This document shows positions 4,520 to 18,022 of a stretch of DNA of 23,650 nucleotides, in pieces (position 1 is the stretch's first letter; every line of letters begins with the position of its first letter). The position numbers and the translations under genes were made by a program. Source of the stretch: a virus; IMG/VR virus record IMGVR_UViG_3300037502_001206, positions 1-23,650 of that record; one strand, 5' to 3'. The notes under the pieces were generated by a model. The model saw only the letters and a program-made list of their open reading frames with translations, was not told the origin of the DNA and made no database searches.

Positions 4520-5247
4520 GTTATAAGCTGGCCGAATTATTAAACTAAAAACTAAAATTGAAATGAAAATATTGAACTTATATTCTGGCATCGGGGGCAA
4601 CAGAAAGTTGTGGGGAAGTGAACACGATATTACCGCAGTAGAATTTGATGGTAAAATAGCAACAATTTATCAAGATTTATACCCTAATGACAAGGTTATT
4701 GTTGGAGATGCTCACCAATATTTATTAGAGCATTATTCGGAGTTTGATTTTATTTGGGCATCACCGCCTTGCCCTACTCATTCAGTAACCAATTTGTTTT
4801 TAAATCCACAAGGAATAGTTAGGTATCCTGATATGGGATTGTATCAAGAAATAATATTGTTAGAGCAGTTTTTTAAAGGTAAATATTGTATTGAAAATGT
4901 AAAATCATATTATGAGCCATTAATAAAACCGCAAATTAGCGGAAGGCATTATTTCTGGGCAAATTTCAAAATACCTAACTTAAAAGTAGAAAAACAAATT
5001 GGTAGAATGAATGGCAAAAAAGCAGATTTAGGCGGTAAGGCACAATTTAAAATTAGGCAAAATAACCTTGATAAATTAGGGTTTGATTTGAGTAAATATG
5101 ATTTTAATGATAAAGATAAATTGTTGCGTAATTGTGTTGCCCCCGAAATTGGAAAGGCAATATTTGAAAGTGCAATGAATATCTATAATGCAAATAATGT
5201 TGAACAGATAGGCTTGTTCGGAGGCGAGAGCTCGGCTTGCTTATAAC
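4520..5247 (+). mobile_element. Cassette D, bounded by its own inverted repeat
   Basis: The left end GTTATAAGCTGGCCGA (4520-4535) matches the reverse complement of the right end (5247-5232), GTTATAAGCAAGCCGA, at 14 of 16 positions. It holds only the cytosine methyltransferase gene, whose stop TAA (5244-5246) is part of the closing TAAC, so the last codons of the gene lie inside the inverted repeat. Confidence 0.65.
4563..5246 (+). CDS. Orphan DNA cytosine-5 methyltransferase
   Basis: Transfers a methyl group from S-adenosylmethionine to carbon 5 of cytosine in DNA. Visible C5-methyltransferase motifs in order: motif I NLYSGIGGN (5-13), an acidic VEFD (26-29), GDA (48-50), the catalytic Pro-Cys SPPC with Cys70, ENV (111-113), GRHYFWANF (127-135) and a motif X-like NCVAPEIGKAI near residue 200. 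At 227 residues it is much shorter than typical enzymes (300-400), with little room for a target recognition domain. No restriction endonuclease is nearby, so the likely role is protection of phage DNA from host restriction, or regulation. The C-terminal GLFGGESSACL is partly encoded by the cassette inverted repeat. Confidence 0.92.
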   Translation: MKILNLYSGIGGNRKLWGSEHDITAVEFDGKIATIYQDLYPNDKVIVGDAHQYLLEHYSEFDFIWASPPCPTHSVTNLFLNPQGIVRYPDMGLYQEIILLEQFFKGKYCIENVKSYYEPLIKPQISGRHYFWANFKIPNLKVEKQIGRMNGKKADLGGKAQFKIRQNNLDKLGFDLSKYDFNDKDKLLRNCVAPEIGKAIFESAMNIYNANNVEQIGLFGGESSACL

Positions 5248-5252
5248 GTTTT

Positions 5253-5270
5253 GCAACTTGTGTTAGTTGC
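5253..5270. repeat. Short hairpin at the decayed end of the cassette chain
   Basis: GCAACT (5253-5258) pairs with AGTTGC (5265-5270) after the TATAACGTTTTG boundary shared with spacer 4. No downstream end matching cassette D's repeat follows, so this looks like a shortened or decayed spacer that closes the chain. Confidence 0.45.
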
Positions 5271-5322
5271 GTGAATTAAAAAATACACTTAACAAAAATT
5301 AACAAACATTAAATTAAAACTT

Positions 5323-5730
5323 ATGAAAACAAACAAAACACATACCGAGCAATTGACACAAGATGCTGTTATGCAATCGGTTTTAAAAGCAAATGATTTG
5401 AGAATTGGTAATTTAATTTTTTATCAGACCGTTGACTTAAACACAGGTAAAAATGTTTTAGAAATTGTTGAAGCAACCGCTAATGATATAAAAACACAAG
5501 AGTTAAAACCTATTTTTTTGCCCATTACCCTAACCGAAGATTGGTTGTTAAAATTTGATTTTTATGTAAGTGATGTTTTTGGTCAAAAGCAATATTTTCT
5601 AAGCGGAATAACTATTTATGTAAACGATGGTAAATTTCAACATTCAGGTTATGATAGAGAAATTAAACATGTTCACGAATTACAAAACTTATATTTCGCT
5701 TTAACGCAACGTGAATTAACTGTTGCATAA
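5323..5730 (+). CDS. Conserved-type phage hypothetical protein, 135 aa
   Basis: A 135-residue soluble protein with the phrases LRIGNLIFY (about 26-34), ITLTEDWLLKFDF (66-78) and IKHVHELQNLYFALTQREL (114-132). I recall this order of phrases from a very common hypothetical family of Bacteroidota phages; its function is unknown. The gene lies after the last clear cassette boundary and its ends lack a matching inverted repeat. A 10-bp direct repeat CGTGAATTAA occurs before it (5270-5279) and near its 3' end (5710-5719). Confidence 0.75.
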   Translation: MKTNKTHTEQLTQDAVMQSVLKANDLRIGNLIFYQTVDLNTGKNVLEIVEATANDIKTQELKPIFLPITLTEDWLLKFDFYVSDVFGQKQYFLSGITIYVNDGKFQHSGYDREIKHVHELQNLYFALTQRELTVA

Positions 5731-5946: not shown

Positions 5947-6528
5947 TTATAAAGCACTCCCTACAACTAAACCAAACACCACAGCGAAAGGCACAGCGTA
6001 TTTAAGTGATTTACTTATACGCTGTTGTTTTTTTATATAGCGTTCCTGTTCTTTTGCAAGTTCAATTAAATTTTTTTCTTTTACTTCAAATTGACTTATA
6101 ATACTATCTTTAAAAATACCTGCAGTTTTTTCGTTTCCTAACATTTCAGTACTAACGACATACATACTATCAACATATTTGCAATCCAATAACTCCAAAG
6201 CTAAATCTACACTATCTTTACCCTTTAAAATTACTTTTGCATCTTCGTTTGTTTTAATGCGTTTTAAGGCACTATTTTTATTTTTGTATATTCTTTGTAG
6301 TTCAAGTGATTTTATTTTATTCTGACTATCTAAAAACGCTATTTGATTACGATATTTAGCAATTACTTCTTTGTTTATTGAATCATTCTTTACTTTTACT
6401 TCTTTATAGACTAATTTAGGTGCAGGACTTTCGCACCCTCTAAAAAGCATAAATACTAAAAGCACCACAAAAGCAATAAACCAAATGTTTAATCTTTTAA
6501 TAAAACTGTATAAATTAATTTGTGTCAT
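5947..6528 (-). CDS. Two-membrane-segment coiled-coil protein, spanin-like candidate
   Basis: A 193-residue protein with an N-terminal membrane span (about 14-30, IWFIAFVVLLVFMLF), then RGCES, a long charged helical region (about 40-165) rich in Lys/Glu/Ser, and a C-terminal hydrophobic segment (about 174-193, LKYAVPFAVVFGLVVGSAL). The architecture and position downstream of the endolysin suggest a spanin or other lysis accessory that bridges the periplasm; this is inference. The Cys following the first span could be a lipid attachment site, but the context is not a convincing lipobox. It is the last gene of the leftward late region and overlaps the gene before it by 14 nt. Confidence 0.65.
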   Translation of the reverse strand: MTQINLYSFIKRLNIWFIAFVVLLVFMLFRGCESPAPKLVYKEVKVKNDSINKEVIAKYRNQIAFLDSQNKIKSLELQRIYKNKNSALKRIKTNEDAKVILKGKDSVDLALELLDCKYVDSMYVVSTEMLGNEKTAGIFKDSIISQFEVKEKNLIELAKEQERYIKKQQRISKSLKYAVPFAVVFGLVVGSAL

Positions 6529-14537: not shown

Positions 14538-14726
14538 TTATCCGTTTACTCTTGTTATTACTCTTACTCCGTTATTTTCTGTAATGGTTACATTATCTAC
14601 TCCTGTAGTTTTACCAATTCCTTGATTTTGCAAATCACCATTGCAACATTCTTTACTATAAGTATTGTCATCACATAGACAACCACGCTTTCCACCTTTC
14701 GGACTTGTTTTACTTTTTGTTTTCAT
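14538..14726 (-). CDS. Small Gly/Cys-rich protein, 62 aa
   Basis: A 62-residue protein. A basic N-terminus is followed by KGGKRGCLCDDNTYSKECC (10-28), with four Cys in C-L-C ... E-C-C spacing, then NQGIGKTTG and a short beta hairpin (VTITENNGVRVITRV). The Cys set suggests a metal knuckle or disulfide-stabilised peptide. I recall similar small proteins between protease and capsid genes in Bacteroidota phages. It overlaps the protease gene by 17 nt, so it is translated with it. Function unknown. Confidence 0.65.
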   Translation of the reverse strand: MKTKSKTSPKGGKRGCLCDDNTYSKECCNGDLQNQGIGKTTGVDNVTITENNGVRVITRVNG

Positions 14727-15303
14727 ATTTATTTATTATTTGTTTTATTTGCTCTATTACACTCGGTTGTTTAGATAGTTGTTTCTTCTCTTCTAACTTG
14801 TCAGCGAAGTAACCCTCTAAAGAAAACCCTTTTACTTTTCCTGTTTTTACGTAGTCATTCCAAATAGTATCATCTTCAACTTTTACTGAAGCCATCCACG
14901 AACCAACAGGAACTGATAAATTGTAAATTGCTGATTTATCTTTTTGCGTATCTTCTACAATCCAACTTTCAACAACAGTCAATCCTTTTATTTCTTTGTT
15001 GTGTTCTAAAGTCCAATTATTCTGATTTCCATTTTTAAAGAATAATTGACTCGCTTTGTTTACTGTGTCTTTTGAGAAATAGATATAATATTCATCCTCT
15101 CCGTTTTTACGATAGATAGGTTTTTCAGGAATTAAAACCGCACCCATTAAAATACGCTTCTCACTATCTACTTGTGCAAGTTTGATTTCTCCTGACTTTA
15201 ACGCTACGAAATTTGACTCGATTGCTGGACTTTCAACAACTGAAATAGCATCTACTCCGCTCAACTCATCTTTTTCGTCTATAATTAATTCAATTAAATT
15301 CAT
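14710..15303 (-). CDS. Prohead protease, XkdF-like
   Basis: A phage maturation protease of the serine type, related to the XkdF-like family, which cleaves scaffold and capsid during head assembly. The opening ELSGVDAISVVESPAIESNFVAL (13-35) is typical of that family. Candidate catalytic residues are His101 in NWTLEHNKEIKG and Ser161 in KGFSLEGYF. The region RILMGAVLIPEKPIYR (50-65) and VPVGSWMASVKV (131-142) form the core strands. It is 197 residues and precedes the scaffold and capsid genes. The gene has an ATTAAAACAC element 12 nt upstream of its ATG, like three other late genes. Confidence 0.85.
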   Translation of the reverse strand: MNLIELIIDEKDELSGVDAISVVESPAIESNFVALKSGEIKLAQVDSEKRILMGAVLIPEKPIYRKNGEDEYYIYFSKDTVNKASQLFFKNGNQNNWTLEHNKEIKGLTVVESWIVEDTQKDKSAIYNLSVPVGSWMASVKVEDDTIWNDYVKTGKVKGFSLEGYFADKLEEKKQLSKQPSVIEQIKQIINKYENKK

Positions 15304-15343: not shown

Positions 15344-15351
15344 TATATTTG
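15344..15351 (+). promoter_or_regulatory. Plus-strand promoter -7 box before the moron
   Basis: TATATTTG on the plus strand, opposite to the late genes, in the gap after the protease start. No TTG at the right distance is visible, so the upstream element is weak. Confidence 0.55.
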
Positions 15352-15354
15352 TAC

Positions 15355-15414
15355 TTCGCTACAGCAATAAGATATTTAATCCCTGACATTTGTAGCGAGT
15401 GTTGGGGATTTTTT
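15355..15414 (+). ncRNA. Structured leader or small RNA with possible pseudoknot
   Basis: Two helices interleave: CGCTACA (15357-15363) with TGTAGCG (15391-15397), and AATCCC (15378-15383) with GGGATT (15405-15410), the latter followed by TTTT. The order S1-S2-S1'-S2' is that of an H-type pseudoknot. The second stem alone is terminator-like, so the RNA may act as an attenuator before the lipoprotein gene, or be a small RNA in its own right. Confidence 0.5.
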
Positions 15415-15427
15415 AAAACAATTTATT

Positions 15428-15808
15428 ATGAAAAAAGTATTGTTAATTTTGGGATTGTCTATTTCGTTATTTTCTTGTAATGATTATCAAAGACAACAAA
15501 ACCAATTAGATGCAGAAAGTGATGGTAAATCTATTTTACTAAAAGCAGAAAGTGAAAAGAAAGCCGACATTGAACAAGCAAAAGCAAATTATGAAAGTGC
15601 TAAACTTGATGCTTTGACAAGAATTGAAAAAGCAAAGTCAGAAAGTCAAGCTATTTTATTAAAAGCAGAAAGTCAAGCAAAAGCGAATAGATTGTTAAAT
15701 GAATCTATTACGCCTGAAATTTTAGAATTTAATAAAATTAATCGTTGGAATGGAAAACTACCAACTACTACTTTAGGTAATCAAGGTTCAATTATAAATT
15801 TAAAATAA
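15428..15808 (+). CDS. Lipoprotein moron with prohibitin-like tail, 126 aa
   Basis: A small lipoprotein inserted as an oppositely oriented moron between tail and head genes. The signal sequence (MKKVLLILGLSISLFSC) ends in a good lipobox, LFSC, with Cys17 as lipid site. It continues as a charged coiled helix with a repeated phrase: SILLKAESEKKAD (about 35-47) and AILLKAESQAKAN (75-87). The end NRLLNESITPEILEFNKINRWNGKLPTT resembles the C-terminal region of prohibitin-like SPFH proteins (L(T/S)PE...WDGKLP). The SPFH core domain itself is missing. A role in the host envelope, such as superinfection exclusion, is inference. It is joined by TAATG to the next gene. Confidence 0.75.
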   Translation: MKKVLLILGLSISLFSCNDYQRQQNQLDAESDGKSILLKAESEKKADIEQAKANYESAKLDALTRIEKAKSESQAILLKAESQAKANRLLNESITPEILEFNKINRWNGKLPTTTLGNQGSIINLK

Positions 15809-15903
15809 TGAAAATACTTGTCTTTACATTAGTAGGTATTCCTTTATTGATTATTTTTTATTTAGGAATAATTCGTTTAATAAAAGAGTTTTTTAAAAAA
15901 TAA
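15808..15903 (+). CDS. Tiny membrane protein of the moron, 31 aa
   Basis: ATG 15808 overlaps the stop of the lipoprotein gene (TAATG) and opens a 31-codon frame that is one long membrane span (about 4-24, LVFTLVGIPLLIIFYLGII) with a basic tail (RLIKEFFKK). The coupling to the lipoprotein gene makes a partner or anchor role likely. Too short for a family call. Confidence 0.55.
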   Translation: MKILVFTLVGIPLLIIFYLGIIRLIKEFFKK

Positions 15904-15908
15904 TTTAT

Positions 15909-15993
15909 TATATTTGTGCTTTGAGTTTTTTCATAGTTTAAATTTTTTAGTTATTAATCATTAAAGCCACATATTAATTTATGTGGCTTTTTT
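15909..15993 (+). ncRNA. Candidate small RNA unit after the moron
   Basis: TATATTTG (15909-15916) is followed by about 45 nt of U-rich sequence and then the terminator at 15963-15993. The predicted transcript (about 15923-15993) has no reading frame of note. The layout (same -7 box, short transcript, terminator) repeats that at 7717-7800. It may instead just be the 3' end of the moron message. Confidence 0.35.
15963..15993 (+). terminator. Intrinsic terminator of the moron
   Basis: AAAGCCACAT (15963-15972) pairs perfectly over 10 bp with ATGTGGCTTT (15981-15990) around an 8-nt loop, with a T-run after it. It also insulates the tape measure stop at 15995 on the other strand. Confidence 0.85.
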
Positions 15994-15994
15994 A

Positions 15995-18022
15995 TTATCC
16001 TAAACTTGCGTTACTTACTATATTCCTATCTAAACTTTGTTGAGTAGTTACATTGTTTGCGACTACATACGCTTGAACAGGTTGCTGACTTCCTAACGTT
16101 TGAGCAATTTGATTTACTCCTGAATTACCTACTACGTTGAAACTTGGAGCAGGAGCTCCACCGCCTCCACCAGCAGAACCACCGCCACCAGAACCACCAC
16201 TTGGAGCAGAAGTAGAATCGCCTTTAATAGCTTGTATAGATTTCACAGAACTTGCAATAGTTGAACCAATTTCTAAAGCTCCTTTTGCAGTATTTATAGC
16301 AACCCAAGGCATACCACCTGTCAATGGAGAAGCTGCTACAGCGGCTGCATTTGCTTTTGCAATACTTGAAACAGTTGAAGAAACAGATTGTGCAGCAGTT
16401 CTAACCACATCAGCAATAGCTAAAGCCTTTGCAACTTTATTTAATTTCTTACCTCCTAAAGATAAAATATTTTGTAGGTTATCGTAAGTAGCTCTATATT
16501 GTTGCTCTTTAAATTCTCTTTCTTTTTGCGCTATATCCTCCTTTTCTTTAGCTTGTCTTTCCGCTTCATCTTTTTGTTTTTGAGCTTCGTCTTTAGCTGT
16601 TTGTGCATCTTTTGTTTTAGCTTCTCCTTCTAAAATTTTATATTTTTCTAATATTGCTAAACGTGCTTTTGCTTTTTCTTCTTCAGTTAATTTTAAAGCA
16701 TCTAATTCCGCTAAATCCCTTTGCTTTTGAAGTGCTACTTTTTCAACTTCTGTTTTAGCTTTTAAATCTTCAATAGCTTTTAAAGCATTTTCTTCGATAT
16801 TTTTTAAAGCGTCTTTTTGTGCTTTTGCTGCCTCAAGTGCTTTGTCGTTCTTTTCCTTTTGTTTAGCTGCTGCATCTTTAGCAGCTTGGTCATCAATATT
16901 TTTTATAGATAGTTGTAAACCTGCTCTATCGTTTTTTAATTTCTCTAAACCTTTTAAACTTTCTTTTCGTGTTTCTTCTGCTTTCTTTTTTTCCGCTTCA
17001 GGGTCAAATATTAAACTCGCACCTTTATCTACTAAATCACTAAAGCCTTGAGCAAGTCCAAAGTTTTGCCCCAATGCCTTGCCGACCATATCAACACCCT
17101 CTAATAATAAAGTTAAAGGTGTTTGAATAAATTTAATAATTCCTGCTAATATATCCCTATTACGTTGCGAAGCTGCTATTTGTGCTTTTGCAGTAATATC
17201 ATTTTGTGCAATTTGGTTTTCAGTTGCTTTTATTACTTCATCGGTTTGAGCAATCTTTAGTTTTAAAATATCCTTTTCGCTTTTTCCTTGTAACTTTAAA
17301 ATATTTTCTTGACCACCGATTGCATCTAATTTACCTTGTTGCAAATCTAAATTAGCTTGTGCTTGAGCGTTTAATTTTTCTTGCTCCGAACTTACACCAC
17401 CTACTAATTCTTTAATGTCATCCCAATATGCTACAATAGCACCTAAAGCAATTAATAAAACACCTACACCCGTAGCAGCTATTCCTGTTTTAATTCCGTT
17501 TAAAGCTATTCTTGCTGATATACCTAATGCTTTGAAAGCTACTGCACCCTCACGAATACCTCGTACACCTTCAGCTAATGCCATTGCACCCTGAACTTTT
17601 AAAAGTGCTTCTTCAAGTTTTTGACTCTCTCCACCTGTTAAAGCCATTGCACCCTGAACACCTGCAAAAGTTGAAGTAACACCCTGTAAAGCACCGCCTA
17701 ACTTTGCGTCAAATGTAGTTGCAGCAGCATCAACAACCATATCTGTTTGCATTTGCACCTTACGATAATTACCAACGGTTTGAAGTAAGTCTTGATATTC
17801 TTTAGTAGCACTTTGCCCAGCTAAAGCAAGTTCGTATAACCTATCTTCAGCCTCTCCCATTCTTGATGTTAGCGGTTGCAAATTACCATAGACTTCCTCA
17901 AATGTAGCATCTACACTTTTTGCAGACTTATCAACTTGTTTAAGTGCCTTATCTAAATTTTCAAGACCCCCAACTGCTTTAAGCGAGTTAACATCAATTT
18001 CTATCGTTTTTGTAATTGCCAT
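15995..18022 (-). CDS. Tail tape measure protein, 675 aa
   Basis: Sets tail length and is extruded during DNA entry. The sequence shows long helical stretches, an internal hydrophobic segment (about 185-200, GIAATGVGVLLIALGAIVAYW), a strong coiled-coil rich in Lys/Glu/Ala (about 375-510) and a Gly/Ser-rich linker near the C-terminus (GGSGGGGSAGGGGGAPAP). The region near residue 95-160 is Ala/Gly-rich, as in tape measures. At roughly 1.5 angstrom per residue, 675 residues suggest a tail of about 100 nm; this is a rule of thumb. No lytic transglycosylase or peptidase domain is seen. It follows the tail hub genes rather than preceding them. Confidence 0.9.
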   Translation of the reverse strand: MAITKTIEIDVNSLKAVGGLENLDKALKQVDKSAKSVDATFEEVYGNLQPLTSRMGEAEDRLYELALAGQSATKEYQDLLQTVGNYRKVQMQTDMVVDAAATTFDAKLGGALQGVTSTFAGVQGAMALTGGESQKLEEALLKVQGAMALAEGVRGIREGAVAFKALGISARIALNGIKTGIAATGVGVLLIALGAIVAYWDDIKELVGGVSSEQEKLNAQAQANLDLQQGKLDAIGGQENILKLQGKSEKDILKLKIAQTDEVIKATENQIAQNDITAKAQIAASQRNRDILAGIIKFIQTPLTLLLEGVDMVGKALGQNFGLAQGFSDLVDKGASLIFDPEAEKKKAEETRKESLKGLEKLKNDRAGLQLSIKNIDDQAAKDAAAKQKEKNDKALEAAKAQKDALKNIEENALKAIEDLKAKTEVEKVALQKQRDLAELDALKLTEEEKAKARLAILEKYKILEGEAKTKDAQTAKDEAQKQKDEAERQAKEKEDIAQKEREFKEQQYRATYDNLQNILSLGGKKLNKVAKALAIADVVRTAAQSVSSTVSSIAKANAAAVAASPLTGGMPWVAINTAKGALEIGSTIASSVKSIQAIKGDSTSAPSGGSGGGGSAGGGGGAPAPSFNVVGNSGVNQIAQTLGSQQPVQAYVVANNVTTQQSLDRNIVSNASLG

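Follow-up and report, generated by a model that had tools for sequence, protein, structure and literature searches.

A leader-RNA-headed moron of flavobacterial siphophages is predicted to encode a tail-only SPFH-type lipoprotein and a very small membrane partner

Introduction

Why would a phage carry two short, overlapping genes for envelope proteins on the strand opposite to its virion genes, and where do such genes come from? The question is raised by the locus described here. The window (the whole stretch of DNA that was analyzed) is a linear IMG/VR virus contig of 23,650 bases, in which a gene pair lies in a slot between the head-protease and tape-measure genes (Table 1). The orientation of the pair is opposite to both of these minus-strand genes, as the first-pass annotation of this DNA had described. 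That annotation also proposed that the pair was a moron and an envelope-acting module of lysogenic conversion or exclusion, assembled from part of a host membrane scaffold protein.

The viruses that bear the cassette are siphophages of Flavobacterium-like bacteria. In a comparison of the capsid protein, the closest named phages were the Nonlabens phages P12024S/L (33% identity). Elsewhere, the window has a partial match to C-5 cytosine DNA methylases (4563–5246; Pfam E 7.7e-7) that covers N-terminal motifs only. Both the cassette and the lipoprotein belong to known kinds, namely a moron and an SPFH-related phage lipoprotein; what is new here is the small partner of a widely distributed, mislabelled family of tail-only SPFH proteins and a phage leader RNA.

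Table 1. Positions of the cassette, its elements and the flanking genes in the window
Feature	Position	Strand	Remarks
Head protease, XkdF-type	14710-15303	-	Pfam Peptidase_S78_2, E 3.6e-15
Promoter box TATATTTG	15344-15351	+	Left copy of the direct repeat bounding the cassette; corresponds to -12 to -5 of the flavobacterial sigma-A consensus TAnnTTTG
Mobile cassette, 565 bp	15352-15916	.	Removal leaves one TATATTTG box and gives the empty allele
Structured 5' leader RNA (predicted)	15356-15427	+	Outside Rfam
5' terminal element UCGCUACA	15356-15363	+	Complementary to the hairpin loop
Covarying hairpin	15378-15410	+	Arms 15378-15388 and 15400-15410
Invariant loop UUUGUAGCGAG	15389-15399	+	Its UGUAGCGA (15391-15398) is complementary to the 5' end
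Tail-only SPFH lipoprotein (ORF1), 126 aa	15428-15808	+	Signal peptide, lipobox Cys17, long 'wall-type' helix, cap helix, short C-terminal segment
Prohibitin-type tail, lipoprotein residues 88-126, RLLNESITPEILEFNKINRWNGKLPTTTLGNQGSIINLK	15689-15805	+	
Membrane partner (ORF2), 31 aa, single-span	15808-15903	+	Start codon overlaps the lipoprotein stop (ATAATG)
Second TATATTTG box	15909-15916	+	Right repeat copy; sole box of empty alleles
Candidate RNA of ~73 nt	15921-15993	+	From the second box to the terminator; inferred from sequence
Intrinsic terminator AAAGCCACATA-N6-TATGTGGCTTT + T run	15963-15993	+	Compensatory changes among relatives
Tape measure protein	15995-18022	-	phrog_24676

Results and Discussion

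The lipoprotein resembles the upper half of an SPFH cage subunit

The product of the first open reading frame has the sequence features of a bacterial lipoprotein, with a signal peptide and a lipobox (SLFSC, residues 13–17) that ends in a cysteine. This cysteine and its lipobox-like context, the predicted acylation site, are kept in all 13 aligned short forms. The first-pass annotation had read the C-terminus as prohibitin-like and the protein as devoid of an SPFH domain, and had proposed a profile search against SPFH C-termini, which proved significant. The PHROG family phrog_200 matches residues 39–121 (E 2e-15), aligned to the end region of its 379-position profile. Furthermore, an hhalign comparison of 11 short forms with nine full-length phage and host SPFH proteins gave a probability of 99.1% (E 1.6e-18), a match that covers only the C-terminal 66 columns. 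Searched as a profile against the PDB, the lipoprotein retrieved PHB2 (2.4e-4, 1.8e-3), QmcA (1.3e-3) and, weakly, HflC; these matches are moderate (E about 1e-3) and fall partly within helical, low-complexity sequence. A Pfam scan did not find the Band_7/SPFH domain (PF01145) in the lipoprotein, whereas full-length phage relatives such as that of FL-1 carry it (Pfam E 1e-11 to 1e-21). Pfam, NCBIfam and PADLOC returned nothing usable for the lipoprotein. Judged from these alignments, the resemblance to SPFH/prohibitin tails is real.

The N-terminal half of the protein (residues 11–83) matches a second family, phrog_11227 (E 1e-9), which also matches Bacteroidetes relatives of the lipoprotein (E 1e-12 to 1e-35). 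The window protein is, by these profiles, a chimera that fits phrog_11227 and carries a tail of the phrog_200 type. An AlphaFold model of the monomer (mean pLDDT 72, pTM 0.32) has helices at residues 2–93 and 96–107, and a tail without a resolved fold. The first of these features bears on the duplicated ILLKAES block highlighted by the first-pass annotation. The repeat is present, but its second copy is not conserved among relatives and the short forms differ by an 11-residue insertion in the helix that bears it, which suggests that the duplication is ordinary helix repetition.

Solved SPFH cages comprise a membrane-facing SPFH1/2 ring, a wall helix, a cap helix and a C-terminal strand (PMC12344292, PMC12624060). 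The strand closes the narrow end of the cage, in some cases as a beta-barrel (PMC12344292, PMC12624060). The window protein shares the wall helix, cap helix and tail with the prohibitin, HflK/HflC and QmcA cages (PHB2 and QmcA, with HflC a weak match) and differs from them in lacking the SPFH1/SPFH2 ring domains, in being phage-encoded and in its lipid anchor. Hence, the lipoprotein appears to keep the parts of the upper half of the cage and to have exchanged the ring domain for a lipid anchor. Because the mini-protein keeps the wall helix, the cap helix and the C-terminal element behind this anchor, we favor co-assembly with, or capping of, SPFH cages. As our leading mechanism, the tail-only lipoprotein may join or cap host or phage cages and thereby alter FtsH-type proteolysis, a proposal that we hold at somewhat less than an even chance.

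The retained wall helix, cap helix and C-terminal segment would also suit a lipoprotein that assembles on its own. It would then form a ring or cap at the membrane without a host SPFH partner and compartmentalize phage or host membrane proteins, with the 31-residue peptide as cargo or base. In favor of such self-assembly, the wall helix varies by 11-residue steps, and in solved SPFH cages the length of this helix scales with the size of the ring (PMC12624060). However, the main inter-subunit contacts in the solved cages are made by the SPFH1/2 ring domains, and we consider an autonomous mini-cage unlikely.

The lipoprotein recurs with an overlapping membrane partner

Short forms of the lipoprotein were found at 16 viral loci (52–100% identity), each with an overlapping membrane partner of 31–34 residues (16/16). 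The loci include repeat samples of one allele; for example, L002, L003 and L004 are identical over the pair. The pair is also present in L025, L028, L029, L030 and L038. In a second class of pair, the same kind of anchor and partner accompanies a different SPFH-type tail (IYVPTEAGLPI). The carriers of this class are phage vB_RanS_PJN03 and contig L038, along with prophages or phage-like regions of Riemerella anatipestifer, Tenacibaculum caenipelagi and Aquimarina algiphila. The two classes establish that the pair recurs in other phages and prophages, a recurrence that the first-pass annotation had proposed to survey. That two different SPFH-type tails follow the same anchor and partner further indicates that the tail is a functional module.

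The overlapping reading frame for a single-span protein, also reported in the first-pass annotation, shows the signature of selection at the protein level (dN 0.03 and dS 0.82 between L011 and L012). The partner has a (V/I)(G/A)(I/V)P motif in 15 of 16 homologues and a positive charge at its C-terminus. A match of the partner to the Pfam PspC transmembrane region (E 0.005) was below the cut-off and was dropped as composition-driven. The envelope address suggested earlier for the pair is supported.

An overlap between genes for a lipoprotein and a membrane protein resembles the arrangement of spanin pairs, and the pair could therefore be read as a lysis accessory composed of an outer-membrane lipoprotein and an inner-membrane peptide. 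The helix of about 110 residues could, in principle, span the periplasm. Several observations make a spanin-like role highly improbable. The 31-residue partner consists of one span and lacks the periplasmic coiled coil of a spanin inner-membrane subunit; the lipoprotein is homologous to SPFH tails; and the pair runs opposite to the late genes and is missing from most relatives, whose naturally empty alleles suggest normal lysis without it. Furthermore, the window encodes an M15 endolysin and, at 5947–6528, another membrane protein whose periplasmic-type region is long.

Tail-only relatives are widespread in phages and include proteins of Erwinia and Klebsiella jumbo phages, Sphingobium Lacusarx, cyanophage S-PM2 and Salmonella SPN1S. 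No homologous membrane partner was seen beside the tail-only relatives in Proteobacteria and in Chryseobacterium phages, so the partner is probably not essential to the core function. The relatives are annotated as 'protease' or 'membrane protease subunit' and have profile matches to phrog_11227 and phrog_200; the label 'protease' looks like a misnomer inherited from 'membrane protease subunit'. In SPN1S (L104 2959–3336; positions 2190–2567 of the record), the tail-only SPFH 'protease' gene is on the strand opposite to its terminase and portal-region neighbors. Its annotated start looks truncated, as the open frame begins about 180 bases upstream.

The two families differ in what they share with the window protein. 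The phage SPFH/Band-7 lipoproteins of phrog_200 (Flavobacterium phage FL-1, DSS3_MAL1 and the phiCbK 'band 7 lipoprotein') have in common with it the C-terminal helix, the cap helix, the WNGKLPTT...IINLK tail and a membrane or lipid anchor; the full-length members carry a Band_7/SPFH domain, however, and the window protein lacks it and is less than half their length. The short phage proteins of phrog_11227 (Salmonella SPN1S gp3, Erwinia PhiEaH1 and Synechococcus S-PM2) have, like the window protein, an N-terminal anchor followed by a helix and an SPFH-type tail without the SPFH domain. Their tail is of type B (IYVPTEAGLPI), whereas that of the window protein is of the prohibitin type (type A), and a homologous small membrane partner was not seen in this family outside the Bacteroidetes.

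The lipoprotein probably derives from phage families rather than directly from a host gene

Short and full-length forms of the protein share an early-region neighborhood in other phages, a genomic setting also seen for phrog_200 members in several phages. For example, a short form follows the annealing protein ERF and one further gene in L015 and L017, and a full-length form is preceded by the annealing protein Sak and a PD-(D/E)XK nuclease in L020 and by a PD-(D/E)XK nuclease in L022. This shared neighborhood supports a history in which the SPFH domain was lost in phage lineages. The tails of host prohibitins are built in a comparable way, as expected if the gene was captured from a host, but these tails match the lipoprotein far more weakly (E about 1e-5 to 1e-4) than phage SPFH tails do. 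Sequence comparison thus points to descent from the widespread phage family represented by phrog_11227 and phrog_200, and not directly from a host gene, contrary to the origin from a host scaffold-protein fragment proposed in the first-pass annotation.

The same annotation had linked such a captured prohibitin fragment to lysogenic conversion. Relatives of the pair do occur in the prophages and phage-like regions of the three bacteria named above, all of them more distant from the window's pair. A search for tyrosine and serine recombinases, integrases and resolvases (PF00589, PF00239) was positive in control genomes and found none in ten relatives of 30–34 kb, records that may be incomplete. 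Lysogeny of the window's phage group is therefore unsupported and a role in lysogenic conversion is, together with the captured-fragment origin, quite improbable.

The pair is carried as a moron between two copies of a promoter box

In-silico deletion of the cassette produces a junction that matches L143 exactly over 49 nt on the left and L152 exactly over 72 nt on the right. We surveyed the slot in 28 relatives in which the protease was at least 85% identical and the slot was readable. Four relatives carried the pair, one had other cargo and 23 had no gene; the gene-free slots held one TATATTTG box and the terminator (8 slots) or a junction of 43–57 bp (15 slots). Other cargo behind the same promoter and leader includes an 80-residue protein in L040 and a 249-residue protein in L051. 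As expected of a moron, the pair is on the opposite strand with a TAnnTTTG box, a leader and a terminator of its own, all of them consensus matches rather than mapped transcripts, and empty alleles exist at the same junction in syntenic relatives. The restored empty site and the swap of cargo in the slot uphold the earlier reading of the pair as a moron. More specifically, the cassette is predicted to be a self-contained one, composed of a promoter, a structured leader, the lipoprotein gene and the overlapping partner gene, in a preferred insertion slot, where it was gained or lost at the duplicated promoter box.

Alleles of the pair also appear to be exchanged between phages. In L007, the tape measure is 99.7% identical to that of the window but the lipoprotein is only 82% and the partner only 58% identical. 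Conversely, L005 has a pair that is 94% and 97% identical and a capsid protein that is only 34% identical. Such swapping between otherwise nearly identical phages could reflect superinfection exclusion, in which the pair alters the envelope, or a receptor or injection partner of related phages, and the SPFH tail serves only for oligomerization. Exclusion lipoproteins of temperate phages are known, such as Ltp of TP-J34 (PMC3952083), and the predicted independent transcription of a lipoprotein moron fits this model. On the other hand, the pair has no similarity to known exclusion families (PADLOC was negative), jumbo phages and cyanophages often carry members of the family, and the tail is more strictly conserved than a simple oligomerization helix would need. 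We regard exclusion of the Ltp type as possible and, on balance, doubtful; co-assembly with SPFH cages remains our preferred reading.

Short repeats were also observed in gene-free slots. At the end of the slot by the tape-measure stop codon, short direct repeats (ACCCTATAAGGTAT) lie about 38 bases from each other in L143 and L145, and L150 and L152 have a TAAGGATATAACCTTA-type repeat pair at the far end. Both are possibly further recombination or regulatory sites.

A structured leader RNA precedes the pair and unrelated phage genes

The most novel part of the locus, overlooked in the first-pass annotation, is the region between the promoter box and the lipoprotein gene, which we predict to be a new phage-associated structured RNA. 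The sigma-A box of Flavobacterium psychrophilum, TAnnTTTG, lies at positions -12 to -5 (PMC9723704), and this spacing puts the predicted +1 at 15356, the first base of UCGCUACA. Pattern scans recovered the leader in front of about 50 distinct, unrelated phage open reading frames (L033–L094), with the ATG 18–34 nt past the loop motif. Among the cargo are NUMOD4/HNH and GIY-YIG nucleases and a lysozyme. Because so many unrelated reading frames share it, the leader may be a general switch of this phage population, unspecific to the pair. One cargo gene (L034 9780, minus strand) encodes a 100-residue phage protein that looks like a fusion: it starts MAKVGTIGNVDHGKTTLSADIKSVLEK, similar to the first P-loop of elongation factor Tu, and continues into a short, unrelated C-terminus.

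The stem of the leader covaries. Across 25 distinct sequences, 86.7% of cells were paired, as compared to 59.8% in shuffles, and the covariation score was 0.781 against 0.249 for shuffled alignments and 0.21 or less for slid controls. The scan pattern required the loop and the 5' element, so that their invariance in those sets is by selection. In a less biased scan, which required just the promoter and the 5' element, 38 canonical loops were recovered and the other sites looked like chance matches; sites with the promoter and TCGCTACA but without the canonical loop were chance-like except for one near-variant (L132). Conversely, each of the 28 stem-loops in 1.77 Mb that carry this loop, with up to 3 mismatches, had the 5' element, although many of these loci had been fetched by the pattern. 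A scan of about 1 Mb for variant 5'-end and loop sequences found no alternative. The predicted pairing of the 5' end with the loop is therefore invariant, and covariation can probe the stem only.

No Rfam model matches the window leader, the pattern is absent from 397 Flavobacteriaceae genomes, and BLASTN of the leader against named phages gave nothing significant (best E 0.3). A reading of the leader as an attenuator or terminator (GGGGAT-TTTTT end) was not adopted, because some members lack the T run.

At three other loci, the same pair is directly preceded by another cis-regulatory RNA, DUF805b (RF02914; L013 1040–1072, L014 42–74 and L030 9946–9980, with the matches in L014 and L030 just below the gathering score). 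Like the window leader, DUF805b has a hairpin loop that can pair with flanking sequence. The two leaders differ in sequence and in the direction of pairing, which in the window leader is from loop to 5' end. RF02914 had no match in the window up to E 5, and a literature search on DUF805b found nothing. Since these pairs follow DUF805b instead, control by a leader RNA seems to be retained for the pair in several phages, although the leaders differ. Phage contig L014 also has a tmRNA (RF00023; 2478–2906), which scores well above gathering, and partially matches a group I intron at 5270–5510, below gathering.

A model for the action of the pair on SPFH cages

In the mechanism that we favor, the lipoprotein would be held at the membrane, facing the periplasm, where SPFH cages of the HflK/HflC type enclose the FtsH protease. 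With its wall helix, cap helix and tail, it could intercalate into or cap the cage of the host, or of a co-infecting phage, as a base-less subunit, and the single-span partner may anchor or recruit it to the inner-membrane complex. As a result, the cage would close differently and FtsH-type proteolysis would change during infection, which could protect phage membrane proteins or exclude a competitor. The leader RNA would set the timing or strength of translation of the cassette, or the lifetime of its mRNA.

A broader model, which we offer tentatively and rate well short of an even chance, joins both parts of the locus. In it, a portable expression head (sigma-A promoter, UCGCUACA-start transcript and a hairpin loop complementary to the 5' end) would drive interchangeable moron cargo in a slot with a copy of the promoter box at either end. 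The cargo in the window, a base-less cage subunit and a very small membrane peptide, would hijack SPFH cages and reprogram FtsH-type proteolysis.

Phages often encode SPFH-type proteins of unassigned role, and the pair offers a minimal version (wall, cap and tail) with a fixed small partner. The natural empty alleles in near-identical phages make the SPFH role testable by simple gene swap. Furthermore, Shine-Dalgarno signals are missing from phages of Bacteroidetes; the leader provides a handle on accessory-gene control in these phages and can be used to search for more morons.

A second promoter box and a possible short RNA follow the pair

The second TATATTTG box comes directly after the pair and is followed by the terminator (15905–15993), and the RNA predicted from this segment is U-rich. 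Box and terminator stand alone in the gene-free slots of L143, L145, L147, L148, L150, L152 and L166.
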